NCBI RefSeq assembly: GCF_000467185.1
Contig: NZ_BATM01000007.1
Span: 62,001-126,000, forward strand
Length of the DNA stretch: 64,000 nt
DNA from: Vibrio ezurae NBRC 102218
Lineage (GTDB): Bacteria; Pseudomonadota; Gammaproteobacteria; Enterobacterales; Vibrionaceae
Direction: 5' to 3'
In this document: one piece after another, positions 536 to 13,854 of the stretch
How positions within the stretch are numbered: position 1 is the first letter of the stretch
Layout: every line of letters starts with the position of its first letter
Position numbers and translations under genes: made by a program
The notes under the pieces: generated by a model
Seen by the model: only the letters and a program-made list of their open reading frames with translations
Database searches by the model: none
Told to the model about the DNA's origin: nothing

Positions 536-887
536 GAGATGTTCAGTGGTGGTAGTGGATATACTTTTGACAAGATTCTATGTGTACAATTTCTTATTGA
601 GTGAAGTTATAAGGTGAGTAATAAGTAGGATGGGTAACGCGCTTTATATCTTGATAAAGCAGATCTATAACTAATTGAAATGTAAGTTTTATTGAGGTTT
701 CTGCTTCATTTGTGCCTAACTGCGCAAATTTCACCTTTAGTCTTAGGATCTGTTTGGGTTACCTATCATGATGATAAATTCACCTATAAGGCATCATCGT
801 AATGTTGCGAGCAACCAGAATGGCGAATCGCTGCCGAAGATCTCTGAATAATTAATGCTATTGAAGACAAGGATATTGGCTGAAACG
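536..887. other. Gene-free stretch between the divergent alginate lyase and the accessory block
   Basis: No convincing gene is present. A small inverted repeat, GCTTTAT (641-647) and ATAAAGC (654-660), is visible. The stretch must hold the promoters for both divergent units, but no clear -35/-10 pair stands out. A more GC-rich patch around 795-845 looks unlike its AT-rich surroundings and could be a remnant of something else; this is unproven. Confidence 0.5.
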
Positions 888-1373
888 ATGAACACAGAAA
901 AAAGCACAGCCCTAAGGGTGTGGCATGGAATCAAAGTCTTTTTTAAATGGTTGTGGCTAATGACCATGTTTCTGATAGGCATTTACATCTATTTACTCGT
1001 TCCACTCGAAATGTTCGAATATTCGTATTCACTGGGTGAGCTTGATTTAATCGAGACAGCATACATCGTATTTTTGGTTGTGATTAGTTATAAATATATA
1101 AGGCTCTGTTCACGGGTTAATACATCAGTGGTAAGAAAAGTCATTACTCCATTTGTTCACCAAGCTCACCTAATGTTGCTGTTATCCGCTTTATTTCTGT
1201 TTTGTATAAAAATAGATCCTCAATTGTATTGGGATGATTTAGCTAGGGTGCCACTTTTGGATTTGATCTCATATATCTTGATAGCGGCGACATTTACCTA
1301 TAGCTATCACCGAATTGACTCGCAAAACGATGACCACACAGCAACAGTGCATGCGAAGGGAGCAGTAGAATGA
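888..1373 (+). CDS. Small membrane protein of unknown function (four predicted helices)
   Basis: A 161-residue protein with four hydrophobic segments, at about residues 18-42, 50-70, 90-110 and 126-146. The N-terminus is short and cytosolic, and the tail is polar and charged. I do not recognise a family. I chose the ATG at 888; an in-frame ATG at 855 would add 11 residues, and neither has a strong ribosome site (AAGGA lies 14 bases before 888). Its stop overlaps the next start as ATGA (1370-1373), so it is translationally coupled to the small secreted protein downstream. It is first in a three-gene overlapping set just before the viperin gene, which suggests an accessory or defence role, but that is inference. 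Confidence 0.6.
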   Translation: MNTEKSTALRVWHGIKVFFKWLWLMTMFLIGIYIYLLVPLEMFEYSYSLGELDLIETAYIVFLVVISYKYIRLCSRVNTSVVRKVITPFVHQAHLMLLLSALFLFCIKIDPQLYWDDLARVPLLDLISYILIAATFTYSYHRIDSQNDDHTATVHAKGAVE

Positions 1374-1723
1374 AGCCAATACATTATCTGACGGCGTTTC
1401 TTTTCATTTTTGCTCGTCCTAGCTATGCACTTGTGCATTCGGATGCCAAACCGGGCAGCGTAAAGTTTCTTATTTCTGCTTGTCAGGAGTACACAGAACT
1501 CTATAACAAAAGAGATAACTCACGATTTGGCGCTTTTCTGACTACTTCAAAAGAAGAGAGCTTTCGCGCTGGTTACTGCCTTGGTGCGATAATGCATGCC
1601 AATAGTCAATGTGCTTACCCTCGTTCACCTTCGGTTTATCGTTCGGCAGAAATCATTGCCTCGGTCAGCGTCGAACGTGCGTTTTCCGAAGCTAGGGTGA
1701 TAGAGCACGCCGTATGCCGTTAG
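1370..1723 (+). CDS. Small secreted four-cysteine protein, possibly Rap1a/Tai-like
   Basis: A 117-residue protein with a signal peptide (residues 1-20, cleavage after SYA). The mature part has four cysteines (C38, C70, C81, C116). The spacing FLISAC ... GYCLGAI ... C, followed by a helix and a terminal cysteine, resembles Rap1a/Tai-type periplasmic immunity proteins, which have two disulphides. That resemblance is by eye and weak. It overlaps the upstream membrane protein by 4 bases and the downstream gene by 10 bases, so all three are likely translated as a unit. If it is an immunity-type protein, one would expect a periplasmic or cell-wall-acting partner, and none is recognised here. Confidence 0.55.
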   Translation: MKPIHYLTAFLFIFARPSYALVHSDAKPGSVKFLISACQEYTELYNKRDNSRFGAFLTTSKEESFRAGYCLGAIMHANSQCAYPRSPSVYRSAEIIASVSVERAFSEARVIEHAVCR

Positions 1724-2415
1724 TCACAACCAATCAAGCTGTGAAAGATCTATTTGGTATAGAAGGGAGTGAGTCACTGCGCTCCAAAGCCAATAGTTTT
1801 TTACGCAACCAAGTTATCCCATCCTCATTGATAGTCAGTGATGGGTTTAGCGACGATAGCATGGGAAAGTGGGGTAAGAAGCTATTAAAATCTAAAGCGG
1901 TAGATTGCTTGTTTAACGCGCTAGTGTTGGATGGATTTTTTAACGATACAAAGTTTGTTAAAGCCATTTTTGAACAAGCAGCCGTTAGAGCCGAGAGCGT
2001 TGTTTTGTGTGAGGAGATCTTACTCAAAGCGCAAGCCGTAGAAGCGCCCGCATTGCTATCGCAGGTAGCGCGAGAATTTATTACTCAGCTGAAAGATACG
2101 TCGTTTAATTTACGAGACATCCGTTTAACGTGCCCGTTTTCCGCACAGCGATTGCCACAAATGGATATGGCTTTGCAAAATATAGGGGTGCTGTATCAAT
2201 TACTCCGAGCACAACGCTTATCACTCTCATACAAAGACAAGGTGTTACTTTGTTGGTTGGAGCAAGATTTATCGACGGCTTTTGAACTGGTAGAGCAGAT
2301 AGATTCGGCATTGTTGCAAAGTGACATATTGTTAGCCAACTTGGCACAGCAAGTTCGCCAAGAGTATAAAGAGGGAGAAAGTTTTAATACGCTACTAAAT
2401 TCATTGCCGGACTAA
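1714..2415 (+). CDS. Unknown alpha-helical cytosolic protein
   Basis: A 233-residue protein without signal peptide or membrane segment. It is rich in Leu, Ala, Gln and Glu with a predominantly helical pattern. No catalytic motif or known family is recognised. The start overlaps the end of the previous gene by 10 bases, which argues that the three genes from 888 form one transcript. The 63-base gap to the viperin start contains two inverted repeats. It is most probably part of the same accessory block, but whether it works with the viperin is unknown. Confidence 0.6.
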   Translation: MPLVTTNQAVKDLFGIEGSESLRSKANSFLRNQVIPSSLIVSDGFSDDSMGKWGKKLLKSKAVDCLFNALVLDGFFNDTKFVKAIFEQAAVRAESVVLCEEILLKAQAVEAPALLSQVAREFITQLKDTSFNLRDIRLTCPFSAQRLPQMDMALQNIGVLYQLLRAQRLSLSYKDKVLLCWLEQDLSTAFELVEQIDSALLQSDILLANLAQQVRQEYKEGESFNTLLNSLPD

Positions 2416-2478: not shown

Positions 2479-3359
2479 ATGAACCAAGCAAATCAGTTAG
2501 TTATCAATTATCACATCACCGAAAAATGCAATTACGATTGCCATTATTGTTACGCAAAATGGGCTAAACCCAACGAACTGCATCGCAACTTAGATGACAT
2601 GAAGGCGGTACTGAGAAAGTTAGCGCAATACTTCTTCTCATCGAACCCTATCTGGCAAGAACTGCGCTATGACAGTGTCAGGCTGAATTTTGCTGGTGGA
2701 GACCTTTACTTTTAAAACAACGCTTTATTGATGCACTTGATTACGCTGTTGAACTTGGTTTCAAGACATCCATCATCACCAATGGTCATTTAATTGACGA
2801 TCAATTTATTGCCGAACACAGCCAAAAACTCCAATTATTAGGTATTAGCTATGATTCGTCTCATTTTGAGACGCAGCAGCAAATTGGTCGAGTTACCTCT
2901 AAGAGTCAAAACTTATCTTCAGAGCGTTTACAGTCCATCTTTCAAAATGTGAGGCATTACTCGCCCACTACTGAACTAAAAATCAATACGGTAGTGAATC
3001 AATTTAATCACCAAGAAGATTTCACGAGCTTAATTGGGCATCTTCAACCCGACAAGTGGAAGGTGTTGCGCGTTCTGCCTGTATTCGATTCTATCCAAAC
3101 CATTAGTAATCAAGATTTTGATGCTTTTGTTGCGCGTCATCAGTTGGTGGCGGATGTCATGTCGGTCGAAAATAATGATTCAATGATCAATTCGTATCTG
3201 ATGCTAAGCCCTGACGGCGCGTTTTTCCAAAATGGAAATGATGCACAAGGTTATTTTAAAAGCCGGCCCTTGCTCAGTAGCAAAGTTGAGGTGGCATTGG
3301 CAGAGACAGGGTTTAGTGCGGCGAAATTTGCCCAGCGTTATGAATTGGTGGCGGTATGA
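2479..3359 (+). pseudogene. Prokaryotic viperin (pVip), radical-SAM antiviral enzyme, frameshifted
   Basis: Viperins convert CTP, GTP or UTP to 3'-deoxy-3',4'-didehydro nucleotides that terminate viral RNA synthesis. The first segment (2479-2715) carries the radical-SAM CxxxCxxC as C17NYDC21HYC24, followed by YAKW, and then NFAGGD. It stops early. The rest continues in the -1 frame from about 2703: PLLLKQ, then TNGHLI, GISYDS, a KINTVVNQFN block matching the viperin KINSVINRFN, WKVLRVLPV matching WKVFQCLLI, SYLMLSPDGAFFQN, and a C-terminal ALAETGF. Restoring one C in GACCTTTAC (2701-2709) rejoins the frames and recreates the GGDP motif, giving about 293 residues. So one base was lost, by mutation or read error. 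Without repair neither half should work: the C-terminal half lacks the cluster cysteines. The start has a strong AAAGGAG site 6 bases upstream. Confidence 0.88.
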
Positions 3360-3640
3360 ATCGTCAAAAAATAATTGCGGTCGATGGCGTGAAGATTCCA
3401 GTCATTGCGCCTAAAGGACAGCCTAGAGTCGTTGCTATGACTAAGAGGATGATTTCGAAAATAAGATCGAATGATATTCAGCGGGGTATGAGACCAAAGG
3501 TACTGAAGAAAAATAAAAATTGGTTGAGCTACCGTATTAATCGAAAGTACCGTTTATTGGTGGAGCGAACGCGCAGGAACACCGGCCCTTATTACTGCAT
3601 AAGCCGCACTGAATTTGATTATTGGATCAGTTCTTTGTGA
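3356..3640 (+). CDS. Small RelE/ParE-fold protein coupled to the viperin gene
   Basis: A 94-residue basic protein. The central-to-C-terminal part, with WLSYRINRKYRLLVER followed by a short beta hairpin and SRTEFDYWI, resembles ParE/RelE-type toxin folds, whose core is a strand with an xYRxxV pattern. The N-terminal 45 residues are not typical of RelE. No antitoxin-like partner is seen beside it. The start lies inside the viperin stop (ATGA, 3356-3359), so the two are translationally coupled and probably act together. With the viperin frame broken, ribosomes would reach this gene less efficiently. It may be a toxin or nuclease effector, or an RNA-binding accessory protein. The fold call is by eye. 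Confidence 0.55.
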   Translation: MNRQKIIAVDGVKIPVIAPKGQPRVVAMTKRMISKIRSNDIQRGMRPKVLKKNKNWLSYRINRKYRLLVERTRRNTGPYYCISRTEFDYWISSL

Positions 3641-3677
3641 GTGACATGATGTACGAAAAGCGTGTTTAGGTTTAGGT

Positions 3678-3718
3678 CGAGCCAGCATTTTCGCTGGCTC
3701 GTCAGCGTACAATTTTTT
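3678..3718 (+). terminator. Probable terminator after the viperin block
   Basis: CGAGCCAGC (3678-3686) pairs with GCTGGCTCG (3693-3701) around a 6-base loop, with a T run (3713-3718) 11 bases further on. The stem is strong. The T run is farther away than usual, so efficiency is uncertain. Confidence 0.45.
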
Positions 3719-3776
3719 AGTTTTAGTCCACTGAGTTTAGCTACACTTACTCTATTTACTTCAACGAGAGATTAAT

Positions 3777-4526
3777 ATGCTAAGGATGGCGTTGCTTGGG
3801 GGGCTGATTGTGAGTGCTTCTGTATTTGCCAGTGAGTCTGTTGAGCTTAGGTATCAGTTGCCAAAAGGGAAGGATGAAAAAGCGGCTTACACATTCATTG
3901 TGCAGAGCGGCGTTAATCAGCAGTTCATTGAGTTGCTAGAAGAGGTGCTTCCTTTTCAGCAGTCTATGACACTGATTTATGGCGGTGATGAAGAGGCGCA
4001 TTATGATCCTAATCTGCATACTGTATTCATCCCTTATACTTTTGTGGTTGAAGCGCAGCATTATTTTTCTCAGCACAGACCGCAACAAGAGGTTAAGCAG
4101 GGCGTATTAGATACTTTGATGCATACGTTGTTCCATGAAGCAGGGCATGCATTTGTTGCCGATGCTGAGGTGCCCATTCTTGGACGTGAAGAAGATGCGG
4201 TAGATAACCTCGCAACGATTATTATGCTTGAGTATTTAGAGGACGGCGCCCAAGCGACGATTAATGCTGCGGATATGTTTCGTTATGAGTCTGAAGCGGG
4301 TGGCGAATATTATGACTTTGGTGAATATTCAGGAGAGCATAGCTTTGATCTGCAACGTTATTTCTCTACATTGTGTTTAGTCTATGGCAGTGATCCTAAG
4401 GCTTATGCTGATTTATTAAATGAAGTCGAAGACGATTATCTCCCTGAACAAAAACAGACCTGTGAAGAGACTTATGGGCAGTTGAGTATTAATTGGCACC
4501 GTTATTTAAATGCAGATAAAAATTAG
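3777..4526 (+). CDS. Secreted DUF4344-type putative zinc metallopeptidase
   Basis: A 249-residue protein with a signal peptide (cleavage after VFA, residue 18). Residues 116-128 contain H120-E-A-G-H124, the HExxH zinc site, followed about 20 residues later by REEDAVDNLAT, the arrangement of the DUF4344 family of putative metallopeptidases. Two cysteines near the C-terminus may form a disulphide. The function is unproven in the family; a periplasmic protease is the likely reading. It stands alone between the viperin block and the Tad locus and has its own leader of about 130 bases with an AACGAGAG ribosome site. Confidence 0.75.
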   Translation: MLRMALLGGLIVSASVFASESVELRYQLPKGKDEKAAYTFIVQSGVNQQFIELLEEVLPFQQSMTLIYGGDEEAHYDPNLHTVFIPYTFVVEAQHYFSQHRPQQEVKQGVLDTLMHTLFHEAGHAFVADAEVPILGREEDAVDNLATIIMLEYLEDGAQATINAADMFRYESEAGGEYYDFGEYSGEHSFDLQRYFSTLCLVYGSDPKAYADLLNEVEDDYLPEQKQTCEETYGQLSINWHRYLNADKN

Positions 4527-4714
4527 TATTTTATGCGTATTTATTAGCAAGAGGGATCTGGTTGTCATAGAGAATTCTTATCACTATTAAATGAAACCCA
4601 ATCGTATTTATAATTTTATCTCTTATAAAGAAGTACTGCTTATCTTAAGGATTTTGTTATTACTGTTTTAACTTCTTAAAATAAAGCAACCTTCATCTCT
4701 ATTTTTTAAAAGCA

Positions 4715-4897
4715 ATGCTCACAATATTAAAGCGATTCTTAGCTGACCAACAAGGCGTCACCGCCATCGAATATGGTGTAATGGGGGGTGTCCTAGCCAG
4801 TGTACTTGTTCTGATCATGGGTAATCAGGATAGCGGATTTATTGCTACTCTTTTTACGCTTTACGATAACATTCTCATCGCTATTCAATCTGCATAA
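4715..4897 (+). CDS. flp: Flp-family type IVb pilin (first copy)
   Basis: A 60-residue prepilin. It has a short basic leader (residues 1-14, ending in G14), the processing site G|VTAIEY with Glu at +5 and Tyr at +6 of the mature protein, and then a long hydrophobic helix. This is the pattern cut by the TadV prepilin peptidase. The ribosome site is weak. It is 317 bases upstream of the second pilin gene and may have its own promoter. The two leaders are closely alike, but the mature C-termini differ (TLYDNILIAIQSA here). It could be a minor or alternative pilin. Confidence 0.85.
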   Translation: MLTILKRFLADQQGVTAIEYGVMGGVLASVLVLIMGNQDSGFIATLFTLYDNILIAIQSA

Positions 4898-5220
4898 TAA
4901 ACCATCTGAAACTGTCTATTATTTCAACATTAAAATTTACATATTGATTACACAATATGACATCAAGATTAATGTCCCAAAAATTCAATTATCAGCGCTC
5001 GGTTAAGGTTTGTTGATAAGGGGATAGATTGTGATGCCTATCAATATATCGGTGTAGATTAAACACCTGTTATGACGTGATGTTTGCTTAAATGTTAATG
5101 GATTGTTTCCGCCTCTTATTGTGCTGATTTAGTCTCTCTTGGGGGTTGTTCTTGCTCGATTTATTCTGAATAAGACTTCTGGGGTTTCCCTAACATGATG
5201 ATTTAATAAGGAACATGAAC
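4898..5220. other. Leader between the two flp pilin genes
   Basis: No gene is visible. The stretch is AT-rich and ends with a candidate sigma-54 promoter (5141-5156) and the ribosome site AAGGA at 5208-5212. It probably carries the main control region of the Tad operon. Confidence 0.5.
5141..5156 (+). promoter_or_regulatory. Candidate sigma-54 promoter of the main tad operon
   Basis: GGGGGTTGTTCTTGCT has GG and GC separated by 10 bases and ends in TTGCT, matching the -24/-12 pattern. The expected start of transcription near 5167 would leave a leader of about 50 bases before the second flp gene. An enhancer-binding activator would be needed; none is encoded in the window. By-eye match only. 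Confidence 0.35.
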
Positions 5221-5409
5221 ATGTTTAAAACTTTTCTGACTCGTTTTATTAAAGATGAACGCGGTGTTACTGCGATTGAGTATGGCATTATTGGTGTGGC
5301 TTTGGCTGGTGTACTTGTCATTGTTATGAATACCGGGGCCAGTGCTGATGGTGGATTAGTGAATGCGATAAAAGGCGCATTTCAAGATATGGTGGATGCA
5401 ATGAGTTAA
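5221..5409 (+). CDS. flp: Flp-family type IVb pilin (second copy, probable major pilin)
   Basis: A 62-residue prepilin with leader residues 1-15 ending in Gly, the processing site G|VTAIEY, and a hydrophobic helix. I chose ATG 5221 because AAGGA (5208-5212) lies 8 bases before it; ATG 5215 (two residues longer) is only 2 bases from that site. It directly precedes tadV and has a much better ribosome site than the first copy, so it is the likelier major pilin. The mature protein forms the Flp fibre used for adhesion and biofilm formation. Confidence 0.88.
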   Translation: MFKTFLTRFIKDERGVTAIEYGIIGVALAGVLVIVMNTGASADGGLVNAIKGAFQDMVDAMS

Positions 5410-5427
5410 GGATACTCGGTCATTAAT

Positions 5428-5856
5428 TTGGAATGCATATTAATATTGACACTCTTAGTTATTTGTATAGAAGATATAGTAAAAAGAACTATAACAAATA
5501 AGAGTGTATTCTTTGTTTTTATTATATCATGTATAGTCTCTTTGCATGAGGTTAACATAATTATTAAAAGCTTTCTAATATTGACTGTTATTTCTTTGAC
5601 TGTATATAAATTAAATTTATGGGCGGGAGGGGATAGTAAGCTTCTTATATCTCTCTCCCCTTTATTTTCTCCTGAGCAATGTATGGATGTAATAGTATCG
5701 ATACTTCTATGTGGAGGTGTGTTGTCAGTTTTTTATATGGTAAAAAATAGATTTATTTATAGTAGCAACGTTACTAACTTGCCTTATGGTGTAGCAATCA
5801 TTGGAGGAACTAATCTTTCTCTATATTTCTTTCAGGGATTAGCGGTATATTTATGA
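5428..5856 (+). CDS. tadV: Prepilin peptidase TadV/CpaA
   Basis: A 142-residue membrane aspartic protease that cleaves Flp and the TadE/TadF pseudopilins. The first catalytic Asp is in the ED-x3-R-x-I-x-N segment near residue 15. The second is in AGGDSKLL near residue 68, where the family usually has GxGD; here the first position is Ala. Hydrophobic segments fill the rest. The start is not ATG: TTG at 5428 is the most likely, 15 bases after AAGGA (5408-5412). ATT at 5422 is better spaced but a very rare start. It overlaps rcpC by 4 bases. The gene is much more AT-rich than its neighbours and rich in ATA codons. Confidence 0.8.
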   Translation: MECILILTLLVICIEDIVKRTITNKSVFFVFIISCIVSLHEVNIIIKSFLILTVISLTVYKLNLWAGGDSKLLISLSPLFSPEQCMDVIVSILLCGGVLSVFYMVKNRFIYSSNVTNLPYGVAIIGGTNLSLYFFQGLAVYL

Positions 5857-6716: not shown

Positions 6717-8035
6717 TGCTTAATAAATGGTGTAGCAAACTGATATTGGTGTTTTGTTTTATTTCAACACAAGCGTTTGCCTATTTGATTCCGCTAAATG
6801 ATGCTCGCTCAGTACGCACTAAGCAGCAAATTGGCACGGTTTTTATGAGCCAGCCGACGATTGCGGATTATAAAGTGATCAATGAGCGTCAAATTGTCGT
6901 GTTTGGCAGTTCAATTGGTCAGACCCGCTTGATGATTTACGATATTGATGGACGCCTTGTCGTCTCAAGAGTGGTTGAGGTTACTCAGCCCCTTAATAAA
7001 GTTCGTGATGAAATTAAAAAGCGCTATCCAGAACTGGATATCGAAGTCGTTTCTATGGGCTCTAAAGTTGCGGTGAACGGAGTCGTATTCACCGAAAAAC
7101 AACGTGACGGCATTTATGCGTTAGTCGCTAGCATGCTCGACAAACAGCCAGTGGCACGTTTTCCCACTACTGATGCGCCTTTGACAATGGCCGATCCTCA
7201 AACCGAGTTTTATCGAAATAATACCTATGATGGTTTGATTGAAGGCCTAGAAATGAGCTCTCCGTTTCAGGTCAATGTACGTACTACTATTGCCGCGGTA
7301 GGCAGTGAGTTTCGTGAAACGGTGGGCATTGATTGGACTTCGGGGGGATCTCCCGGCGTATTTACTTTCCCCGATCTGACTGCTTCAGATATTTCCGCCA
7401 CTATCACGGCGTTAGCCAATGACAATTTAGGTGAAGTATTGGCGGAGCCAAACTTAACAGTCCTCTCTGGTCAAGAAGCCTCTTTTTTAGTGGGTGGTGA
7501 AATTCCTATGATCACCTCTGACACCAATGGCACAACTATTAGCTTTAAAGAGTTTGGTATTGGCTTAGATATTGCGGCAAAAGTGCATAACGAGCAGGAA
7601 ATACGTTTGCGCGTACAGCCTAGTGTCAGCGTGGTAGAGCAAATCTATAAAACGACCACAGCGGAAGTGCCTCAATTAGCAACGCGTAAAGCTAATACCA
7701 CGATTCAAATCGCCGATGGTCAAACCTTTATGATTGGCGGTTTGATGAATACCGAAGACATTGAATCGCTACAGAAAATCCCTTTATTGGGCGATATCCC
7801 GCTGTTTGGCGCTTTATTTAGTAAAGCGACCACCAATAGAAAAACCACCGAAGTGGTCATTATCGCCACAGTGAATTTGGTTAAGCCAACCAAAGCGAAT
7901 GAATTGGTTATTCCTAGAATCCATAAAACCAACACCTTAAGCCGTTGGATGGGTATGAGTCATGAATTTGCAGAGCAAGATCAACAAAACTCTAATTTGA
8001 TCGAGCTTCTTAATAGTGGAGGTTTTGCACAATGA
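6716..8035 (+). CDS. rcpA: Tad outer-membrane secretin RcpA/CpaC
   Basis: A 439-residue secretin with a signal peptide (cleavage after AFA, about residue 22), a pilus/BON-like N-terminal domain at about 30-120, and a secretin domain at about 185-390. The secretin signature lies at about residues 320-370 (IADGQTFMIGGLMN, then KIPLLGDIPLFGALF). It forms the outer-membrane pore through which the Flp pilus passes. It overlaps rcpB by 4 bases. Confidence 0.92.
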   Translation: MLNKWCSKLILVFCFISTQAFAYLIPLNDARSVRTKQQIGTVFMSQPTIADYKVINERQIVVFGSSIGQTRLMIYDIDGRLVVSRVVEVTQPLNKVRDEIKKRYPELDIEVVSMGSKVAVNGVVFTEKQRDGIYALVASMLDKQPVARFPTTDAPLTMADPQTEFYRNNTYDGLIEGLEMSSPFQVNVRTTIAAVGSEFRETVGIDWTSGGSPGVFTFPDLTASDISATITALANDNLGEVLAEPNLTVLSGQEASFLVGGEIPMITSDTNGTTISFKEFGIGLDIAAKVHNEQEIRLRVQPSVSVVEQIYKTTTAEVPQLATRKANTTIQIADGQTFMIGGLMNTEDIESLQKIPLLGDIPLFGALFSKATTNRKTTEVVIIATVNLVKPTKANELVIPRIHKTNTLSRWMGMSHEFAEQDQQNSNLIELLNSGGFAQ

Positions 8036-12789: not shown

Positions 12790-13854
12790 ATGAAGTATTT
12801 AATTATTGTTTTAGCTCTGCTTGTCACTGGGTGTACGACGACAAATAAGGTCTCAGAACAGCAGGCAATTAATCAATTTACTGTAAGTCAAAATTATCCA
12901 GGCTTAATTGAGTTTTATAAAAAGAAAGTGATTAATGATCAAAATGACTGGCAAGCACAGCAAGACTTAGCGCAGGCATATTTAAGCTACGGCGATCTTG
13001 AATCGGCGGACTTTTATATTCAAAGAGTGTTGTCGCTATCTACAAAACCTTCCGCGACCGCCTATTTTATCAAAGGGCAAGTTTTAGCGCGCAATTTAGA
13101 TTTTAACAGTGCATTAGGCAAATATCAGCAAGCTATTAATAAGGGGTTAGACAGCGCCGAAGTGTACATGCAGCAGGGGATTGCCCTTGCCCAAACCAAG
13201 CAGTATCCAAAGGCTATCGATAGCTTTAATGAGGCGAGATTGCGCGGTTATGACGATGTAAGTGTTAAAAATAATATCGCTATGGTGCACATCTATCAGC
13301 GAGATTATCAATCGGCTATCGATATTTTACTGCCACTTTATGAAAAAGATTCAAGCAATGAAACGGTTAATGCCAATTTAGAAATTAGCATGCTGAAGCA
13401 AAAGAAAGAGAAGCAAGGTGAAAACTCTTCTTTACTCACCGATACGGGTTCTATTGATGAAAATGCAGATAGTTCTGTGGTGCCTTCAAAAAGTGATGTT
13501 GTCAGTGATGATGTGGAAGTCACAAGCATTTCAGCTGAAGAGTTTTTTACCGCTCAGTCTGTTGAACAAAAGTCTCAAACAGAATCTGTAAAAAAGAGTG
13601 CTGCAAAGTCTAAAAGAACCTATCACATTCAGCTAGGGGCTTACGACACCATGGCAGAGGCACTGGAAAAAAGAAACGGCTTATTGAGCACTCAACTGCC
13701 AATTACGATTCGTCCTGTAGAGCTGCAAAACTCTGAAACTTGGTATCGATTGCTCAGCGGTAATTTTGCCTCTTATCGACAAGCGATGAGTTTTGCTAAG
13801 CAACACCAAGAAATATTAAACCCCCATGAATATTTTATTCAAGTAACTCGATAA
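12790..13854 (+). CDS. tadD: TadD lipoprotein with TPR repeats and a C-terminal SPOR domain
   Basis: A 354-residue lipoprotein with lipobox LVTGC (Cys15). Tetratricopeptide repeats span about residues 40-195, a Ser/Glu-rich linker about 200-275, and a SPOR domain about 278-350 (TYHIQLGAYDTMAEA ... WYRLLSGNFASYRQA). TadD is the likely assembly lipoprotein for the secretin. The SPOR domain, which binds denuded peptidoglycan, is an extension beyond the usual TPR-only TadD and could anchor or time Tad assembly at septal or polar wall. Confidence 0.88.
   Translation: MKYLIIVLALLVTGCTTTNKVSEQQAINQFTVSQNYPGLIEFYKKKVINDQNDWQAQQDLAQAYLSYGDLESADFYIQRVLSLSTKPSATAYFIKGQVLARNLDFNSALGKYQQAINKGLDSAEVYMQQGIALAQTKQYPKAIDSFNEARLRGYDDVSVKNNIAMVHIYQRDYQSAIDILLPLYEKDSSNETVNANLEISMLKQKKEKQGENSSLLTDTGSIDENADSSVVPSKSDVVSDDVEVTSISAEEFFTAQSVEQKSQTESVKKSAAKSKRTYHIQLGAYDTMAEALEKRNGLLSTQLPITIRPVELQNSETWYRLLSGNFASYRQAMSFAKQHQEILNPHEYFIQVTR

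Follow-up and report, generated by a model that had tools for sequence, protein, structure and literature searches.

Has the viperin gene of Vibrio ezurae NBRC 102218 been disabled by a single recent mutation, and if so, what does the break say about the genes around it? Prokaryotic viperin (pVip) was reportedly described by Bernheim and colleagues in 2021. In PMC10865869 and PMC10732462, intact viperin is described as converting CTP, UTP or GTP to a ddh-nucleotide by which phage RNA chains are terminated. SAM is cleaved by the Fe–S cluster, whose ligands come from CxxxCxxC, and the resulting radical makes the ddh-NTP from the NTP. Within the window, the whole stretch of 64 000 nt that was analysed, a prokaryotic viperin is encoded at 2479–3359 in two frames (Table 1). 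The first runs from an ATG at 2479 to a premature TAA at 2713–2715 (78 aa), and the −1 frame is open from 2673 to a stop at 3357–3359.

Table 1. Features of the viperin locus, in window coordinates
Feature	Coordinates	Strand	Basis
Membrane protein u172	885..1373	+	Homologues in the module of relatives; no family match
Small protein u117	1370..1723	+	Conserved GYCLG and Cys residues
233-aa protein u233, module marker gene	1714..2415	+	24 of 329 Vibrionaceae genomes
Viperin N-terminal fragment with CxxxCxxC iron–sulfur motif	2479..2715	+	ORF translation; NF038283, 71.5 bits; PADLOC pVip
Single-base deletion site, Glu codon of the GGEP motif	2699..2705	+	DNA alignment with 7 relatives
Viperin C-terminal part, −1 frame	2703..3359	+	NF038283, 248.2 bits over positions 65–281
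RelE/ParE-like gene	3356..3640	+	Pfam PF24732 ParE_like, 38.1 bits (cut-off 24.4)

An earlier note on this DNA had called the gene a viperin from the motifs CNYDCHYC, KINTVVNQFN and WKVLRV. All three are present in the translations, CNYDCHYC in the N fragment, and the family assignment was borne out by profile comparison; both halves match NCBIfam NF038283 and both are called pVip by PADLOC. The N half covers positions 1–64 of this profile and the C half the positions that follow, so that jointly they make up one complete viperin. By itself the C half scores above the cut-off of 180 bits, against 84.5 bits with the eukaryote-type viperin model and 25.4 bits with the next family; another radical-SAM family was therefore rejected for it. 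The intact viperin of Vibrio halioticoli NBRC 102217 (G063) reaches 337.4 bits with the same profile and matches solved structures among the PDB sequences (7n7h and others). The gene is single-copy, with no second viperin in the window genome (G000), and a search of genome contigs with the C half returned one locus only, that of V. halioticoli.

Aligned with the viperin DNA of two close relatives, G098 and V. halioticoli, each of which has one open frame, the window gene shows a sole gap, of one base. Identical positions number 847 of 881 with G098 and 819 of 881 with V. halioticoli (96 % and 93 %). The earlier claim of a gene broken by one missing base thus held, yet two details did not. The base had been placed at 2703–2704, and the alignment gap falls in the Glu codon instead; the repaired motif had been given as a conserved GGDP, whereas GGEP is read in all seven aligned relatives, so GGDP is not the family motif. 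GGEP is also found in the three distant relatives whose frame was read (L010, L012 and L014). A GGE motif within an uninterrupted frame is not found in the window viperin: the 78-residue fragment keeps the CxxxCxxC loop but lacks the GGE motif along with the remaining barrel. Viperin was found in 24 of 329 Vibrionaceae genomes, in 25 copies, and the window copy is the only broken one. The other 24 have open frames of 297 to 367 codons, the G053 copy including a run of N; stops flagged in five of the matches proved, on the ORFs, to be the proteins' own termini at the close of the match.

Programmed −1 ribosomal frameshifting would join both frames and give the protein at a low level, and the geometry would permit it, since the frames overlap from 2673 to 2712 and a −1 shift anywhere in that interval joins them. 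However, none of the 14 in-frame heptamers in the overlap fits X_XXY_YYZ, and the other 24 family copies consist of one frame (that of G053 with its run of N). Lack of a slippery heptamer and the single open frame in relatives led to rejection of this explanation, which is considered highly improbable. Just as improbable, and likewise rejected, is that the fragments are made separately as a split enzyme or that the C-terminal part functions alone. The small number of nonsynonymous changes in the C-terminal frame speaks for such a product, but an early restart codon is absent from the second frame: positions 2703–3000 contain no ATG, TTG or CTG, the first GTG lies at 2949, where visual inspection revealed no ribosome-binding site, and a start there would yield 136 aa without much of the domain.

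That the missing base is a sequencing or assembly error, and the viperin intact, was among the options of the earlier note. The genome is a draft in 67 contigs, of which C61 holds the window, with completeness at 100 and contamination at 0.15; the lesion is one base in one genome, and the remainder of the gene is constrained and carries no second lesion. Against this, the deletion site is not a long homopolymer, and a survey of the 151 kb contig flagged 4 of 123 genes tested against G098, with viperin the only clear frame break; these 123 are part of the 221 ORFs called in the G098 stretch, the remainder having no adequate contig match. The three other flags are an over-extended start, a stop three residues before the end and an ORF judged probably spurious (2 stops in 198 residues). 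In the reverse survey of G098, a two-contig genome, 6 of 122 carried a raw flag, 1 of them by frame. A 627-aa gene beyond the window (C61: 138711–140594) is frame-broken in G098. One clear frame break in 123 genes indicates that the window assembly is not rich in frame errors, and PMC9252829 reports that defence genes are often annotated as pseudogenes. The error option is weakened accordingly and is regarded as unlikely, a single wrong base being still possible. As sequenced, the frameshift stands, though taken alone it is nothing unusual.

The rest of the gene bears on the age of the break. Between G098 and V. halioticoli, the two parts of viperin have dN/dS values of 0.04 and 0.10; between the window and G098 the values are 0 and 0.08. 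Of the seven codon changes on the window branch, 5 are synonymous and 2 nonsynonymous. A simple neutral count puts P at about 0.005, on these few changes and with V. halioticoli as outgroup in a region that recombined. The other module genes in the window are open, with dN/dS of 0.12–0.21 against G098. As the window branch was mostly under constraint, the break would be late, and the conservation of the remaining codons suggests that the lesion is young, in agreement with the recent inactivation proposed earlier. A cost of carriage, raised in the same note, may have selected for the loss. The reading preferred here, which is probably correct, is that viperin lost one base recently in the lineage of the window, for whose species one genome was compared, and is now a null allele.

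The similarity of the window to G098 is not uniform along the locus. Over 1401–2800 the two are 96.5–99.5 % identical, with G098 and V. halioticoli at 84–95 %; over 401–800 and 3601–4400 the window and G098 are 72–80 % identical, with G098 and V. halioticoli at 88–96 %. Synonymous distances between the window and G098 agree with this, at 0.046 for u233 and 0.079 for u117. Genes flanking the cassette stand at 0.47 to 1.0, and the 122 contig ORFs compared have a median of 0.82. Among these 122, u233 ranks 7th and u117 12th lowest, and the others that low are mostly very conserved genes. Low synonymous distance is thus not special to the cassette, and the case for exchange rests on the three-way identity pattern. 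This pattern makes it probable that, at some time later than the species split, the window and G098 lineages exchanged the cassette core.

Four genes accompany viperin in the window, and three of them have no match of weight in the libraries searched; the set of libraries varied among genes of both module forms. The start of u172 was put at 885, probably correctly, because relatives align from that point on rather than from 855. The protein has four hydrophobic segments by crude hydropathy and no family match in Pfam, NCBIfam, PADLOC or PHROGs (Pfam DUF2339, E 0.02, is below the cut-off). In u117 the GYCLG motif and Cys residues are conserved across 14 sequences drawn from the two forms of the module (alignment A2), and the N-terminus resembles a signal peptide by eye only; the protein is perhaps exported. 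Comparison of u117 and u233 with Pfam, NCBIfam, PHROGs and the PDB sequences gave no substantial match to a family or a solved structure for either protein, and PADLOC gave none for u117. A PADLOC match of u233 to HerA (E 0.0007, 16 bits) was taken as chance, as were weak matches to DnaB_2 and HVO_0513_N. Predicted folds from two-row alignments have a mean pLDDT of 46.5 for u233 and 45.5 for u117, too poor for a fold search.

The ATG of the RelE/ParE-like gene overlaps the viperin stop by 4 bases. Searched as a profile (A3), it is weakly similar to YoeB toxin (E 0.0029) and to 7bwf (E 0.0025), an entry that bears the label RelB. No antitoxin family match was found among its neighbours, and u233 could be proposed as its antitoxin only as speculation. 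Further along the window, a putative DUF4344 metallopeptidase is encoded at 3777–4526 (PF14247, 215 bits), adjoined from 4715 on by genes that look by eye like those of Tad/Flp pili.

In a context that the earlier note passed over, the same genes recur in a fixed order in relatives: membrane protein, u117, u233, viperin (optional), RelE/ParE-like gene and nucleotide kinase (optional). A profile of u233 finds the module in 24 of 329 Vibrionaceae genomes, from 4 of 13 genera, and a single-sequence search of 368 further genomes sampled from the class found u233 in none. Plasmids, phages and viral contigs likewise gave nothing for u233, viral contigs nothing for u117 and phages nothing for viperin; 14 plasmid records carry viperin, at less than 60 % identity. 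A phage or plasmid origin was rejected on these grounds.

Viperin directly follows u233 in 15 of the 24 modules. It is absent there in the other nine (G070, G110, G200, G079, G056, G069, G007, G605 and G668), whose genomes have no viperin match at E 1e-10. All 14 viperins at least 52 % identical to the window C half sit in the module, as does that of G651 (40 %); the other 10 copies lie outside it. In the viperin-bearing form, a membrane protein homologue is directly upstream in 14 of 15 (G651 being the exception), u117 is recognized in all 15 and the RelE/ParE-like gene in 13. The last of these counts is to be read with G651, which has none; G632, where the contig end cuts off the RelE/ParE-like and kinase region; G217, called by likeness to the gene of G122 (Pfam 23.3, just under the cut-off of 24.4); and G040, whose gene was dropped from one ORF map by an overlap filter and is visible in another. 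In the viperin-less form, all 9 modules have the membrane protein and 8 have u117; the tools recognized the RelE/ParE-like gene in 6, and a seventh (G110) was identified by eye. The membrane proteins of the two forms are related (hhalign probability 95.5, E 1.4e-8).

In a tree of u233 (23 rows), viperin-bearing modules occupy one side of a branch (97/98), and one change is needed; the tree holds 23 of the 24 genomes, G651 has a very long branch in it, and the program warned that long branches meet. G007 was excluded because its u233 is split: the homologue, in a viperin-less module, lies over two frames at about 7513–8213 of L068.

Several loci carry other genes in or near the module. Type I restriction genes, among ORFs picked by eye and then tested, lie near or adjoin it in five loci (L023, L100, L066, L067 and L068). 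An ORF of 65–70 aa stands between viperin and the ParE-like gene in L102, L103 and L105 (G682, G669 and G663). In L105, ORFs of 98, 115 and 514 aa at 3410–5707, IS66-like by eye, sit between the ParE-like gene and the kinase. A TniQ gene (PF06527) at 13593–15320 of L102 is about 4.5 kb from the module, which may thus ride in a Tn7-like element there.

A kinase gene lies downstream in 8 of the 15 viperin-bearing modules (G152, G053, G040, G122, G217, G682, G669 and G663). PADLOC VakA matches those of G152 (229 bits) and G040 (204 bits); for that of G122 the best model is PDC-M51B. No close relative of this kinase was found in the window genome, G098 or V. halioticoli at E 1e-10, a search that matched in all five other genomes searched and that would miss a distant kinase, its weakest matches being at E 1e-11. 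Likewise, none was seen in the stretch read of G602, G611 and G651. As the viperins of G098 and V. halioticoli are still constrained, viperin seems to function in these two genomes without the kinase. Apart from the module, a distant viperin (40 %) is located beside VakA at 7013–11431 of L070 (G216), where the gene beside viperin matches the PADLOC ‘Ankyrin’ model PDLC02908 at 1307 bits.

Compared with known systems, the window gene resembles pVip (NF038283; PADLOC PDLC02904/PDLC02903) in spanning the full profile across its two halves and in having CxxxCxxC; it differs in its broken frame, in the affected GGE codon and in having no kinase neighbour in its genome. Viperins beside the toxin genes hicA or relE are already in print, in PMC10865869, and the RelE/ParE-like gene directly after the window viperin is of this kind. 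The window adds the membrane protein, u117 and u233 to what the text of section 10 of that paper describes, and overlap with the present locus is possible. The modules of some relatives resemble the pairing of pVip with a kinase (VakA PDLC02911; PDC-M51B) in carrying such a kinase downstream, whereas the genomes of the window, G098 and V. halioticoli are without such a gene. The viperin-less four-gene module of Vibrionaceae shares the gene order of the window, with u117 and u233 standing between a related membrane protein and, in most cases, the ParE-like gene; the window differs from it in the (broken) viperin between u233 and the ParE-like gene. The module is unnamed in Pfam, NCBIfam, PHROGs and PADLOC. 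Among the literature titles and abstract openings searched, none names it, there being no name to search for, and no mention of viperin was found in passages of PMC11980606. The module may be a further, so far unnamed variant of defence linked to viperin.

If viperin is indeed a recent null allele in this lineage, the window strain would make no ddh-nucleotide product. The genome would have passed from the form of the module with viperin to the one without it, its backbone genes left open as in the natural viperin-less modules. Loss of the kinase in the common ancestor would be an earlier step, and exchange of the cassette core with the sister species would have preceded the viperin break. Additionally, the early stop may reduce translation of the overlapping RelE/ParE-like gene.

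A broader possibility is that Vibrionaceae have an immune module into which viperin plugs as an effector. The membrane protein and its perhaps exported partner would sense envelope events, and u233 would couple or restrain the system. By default the effector would be the RelE-like toxin, to which viperin, whether accompanied by its kinase or not, would be added. Both states of the module exist in nature; the kinase would have been lost first in the clade of the window, and the window would capture the switch from viperin-bearing to viperin-less just after it happened. The proposal is a tentative one and on balance doubtful.

The context of the broken defence gene is of more interest than the break itself. 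The break matters because it stands beside intact sister copies and would mark one step of defence turnover, in which the kinase went and then viperin. The module brings viperin together with a membrane protein and a RelE/ParE-like gene, and it would offer a concrete set of genes for asking how bacterial viperins are triggered and kept harmless.
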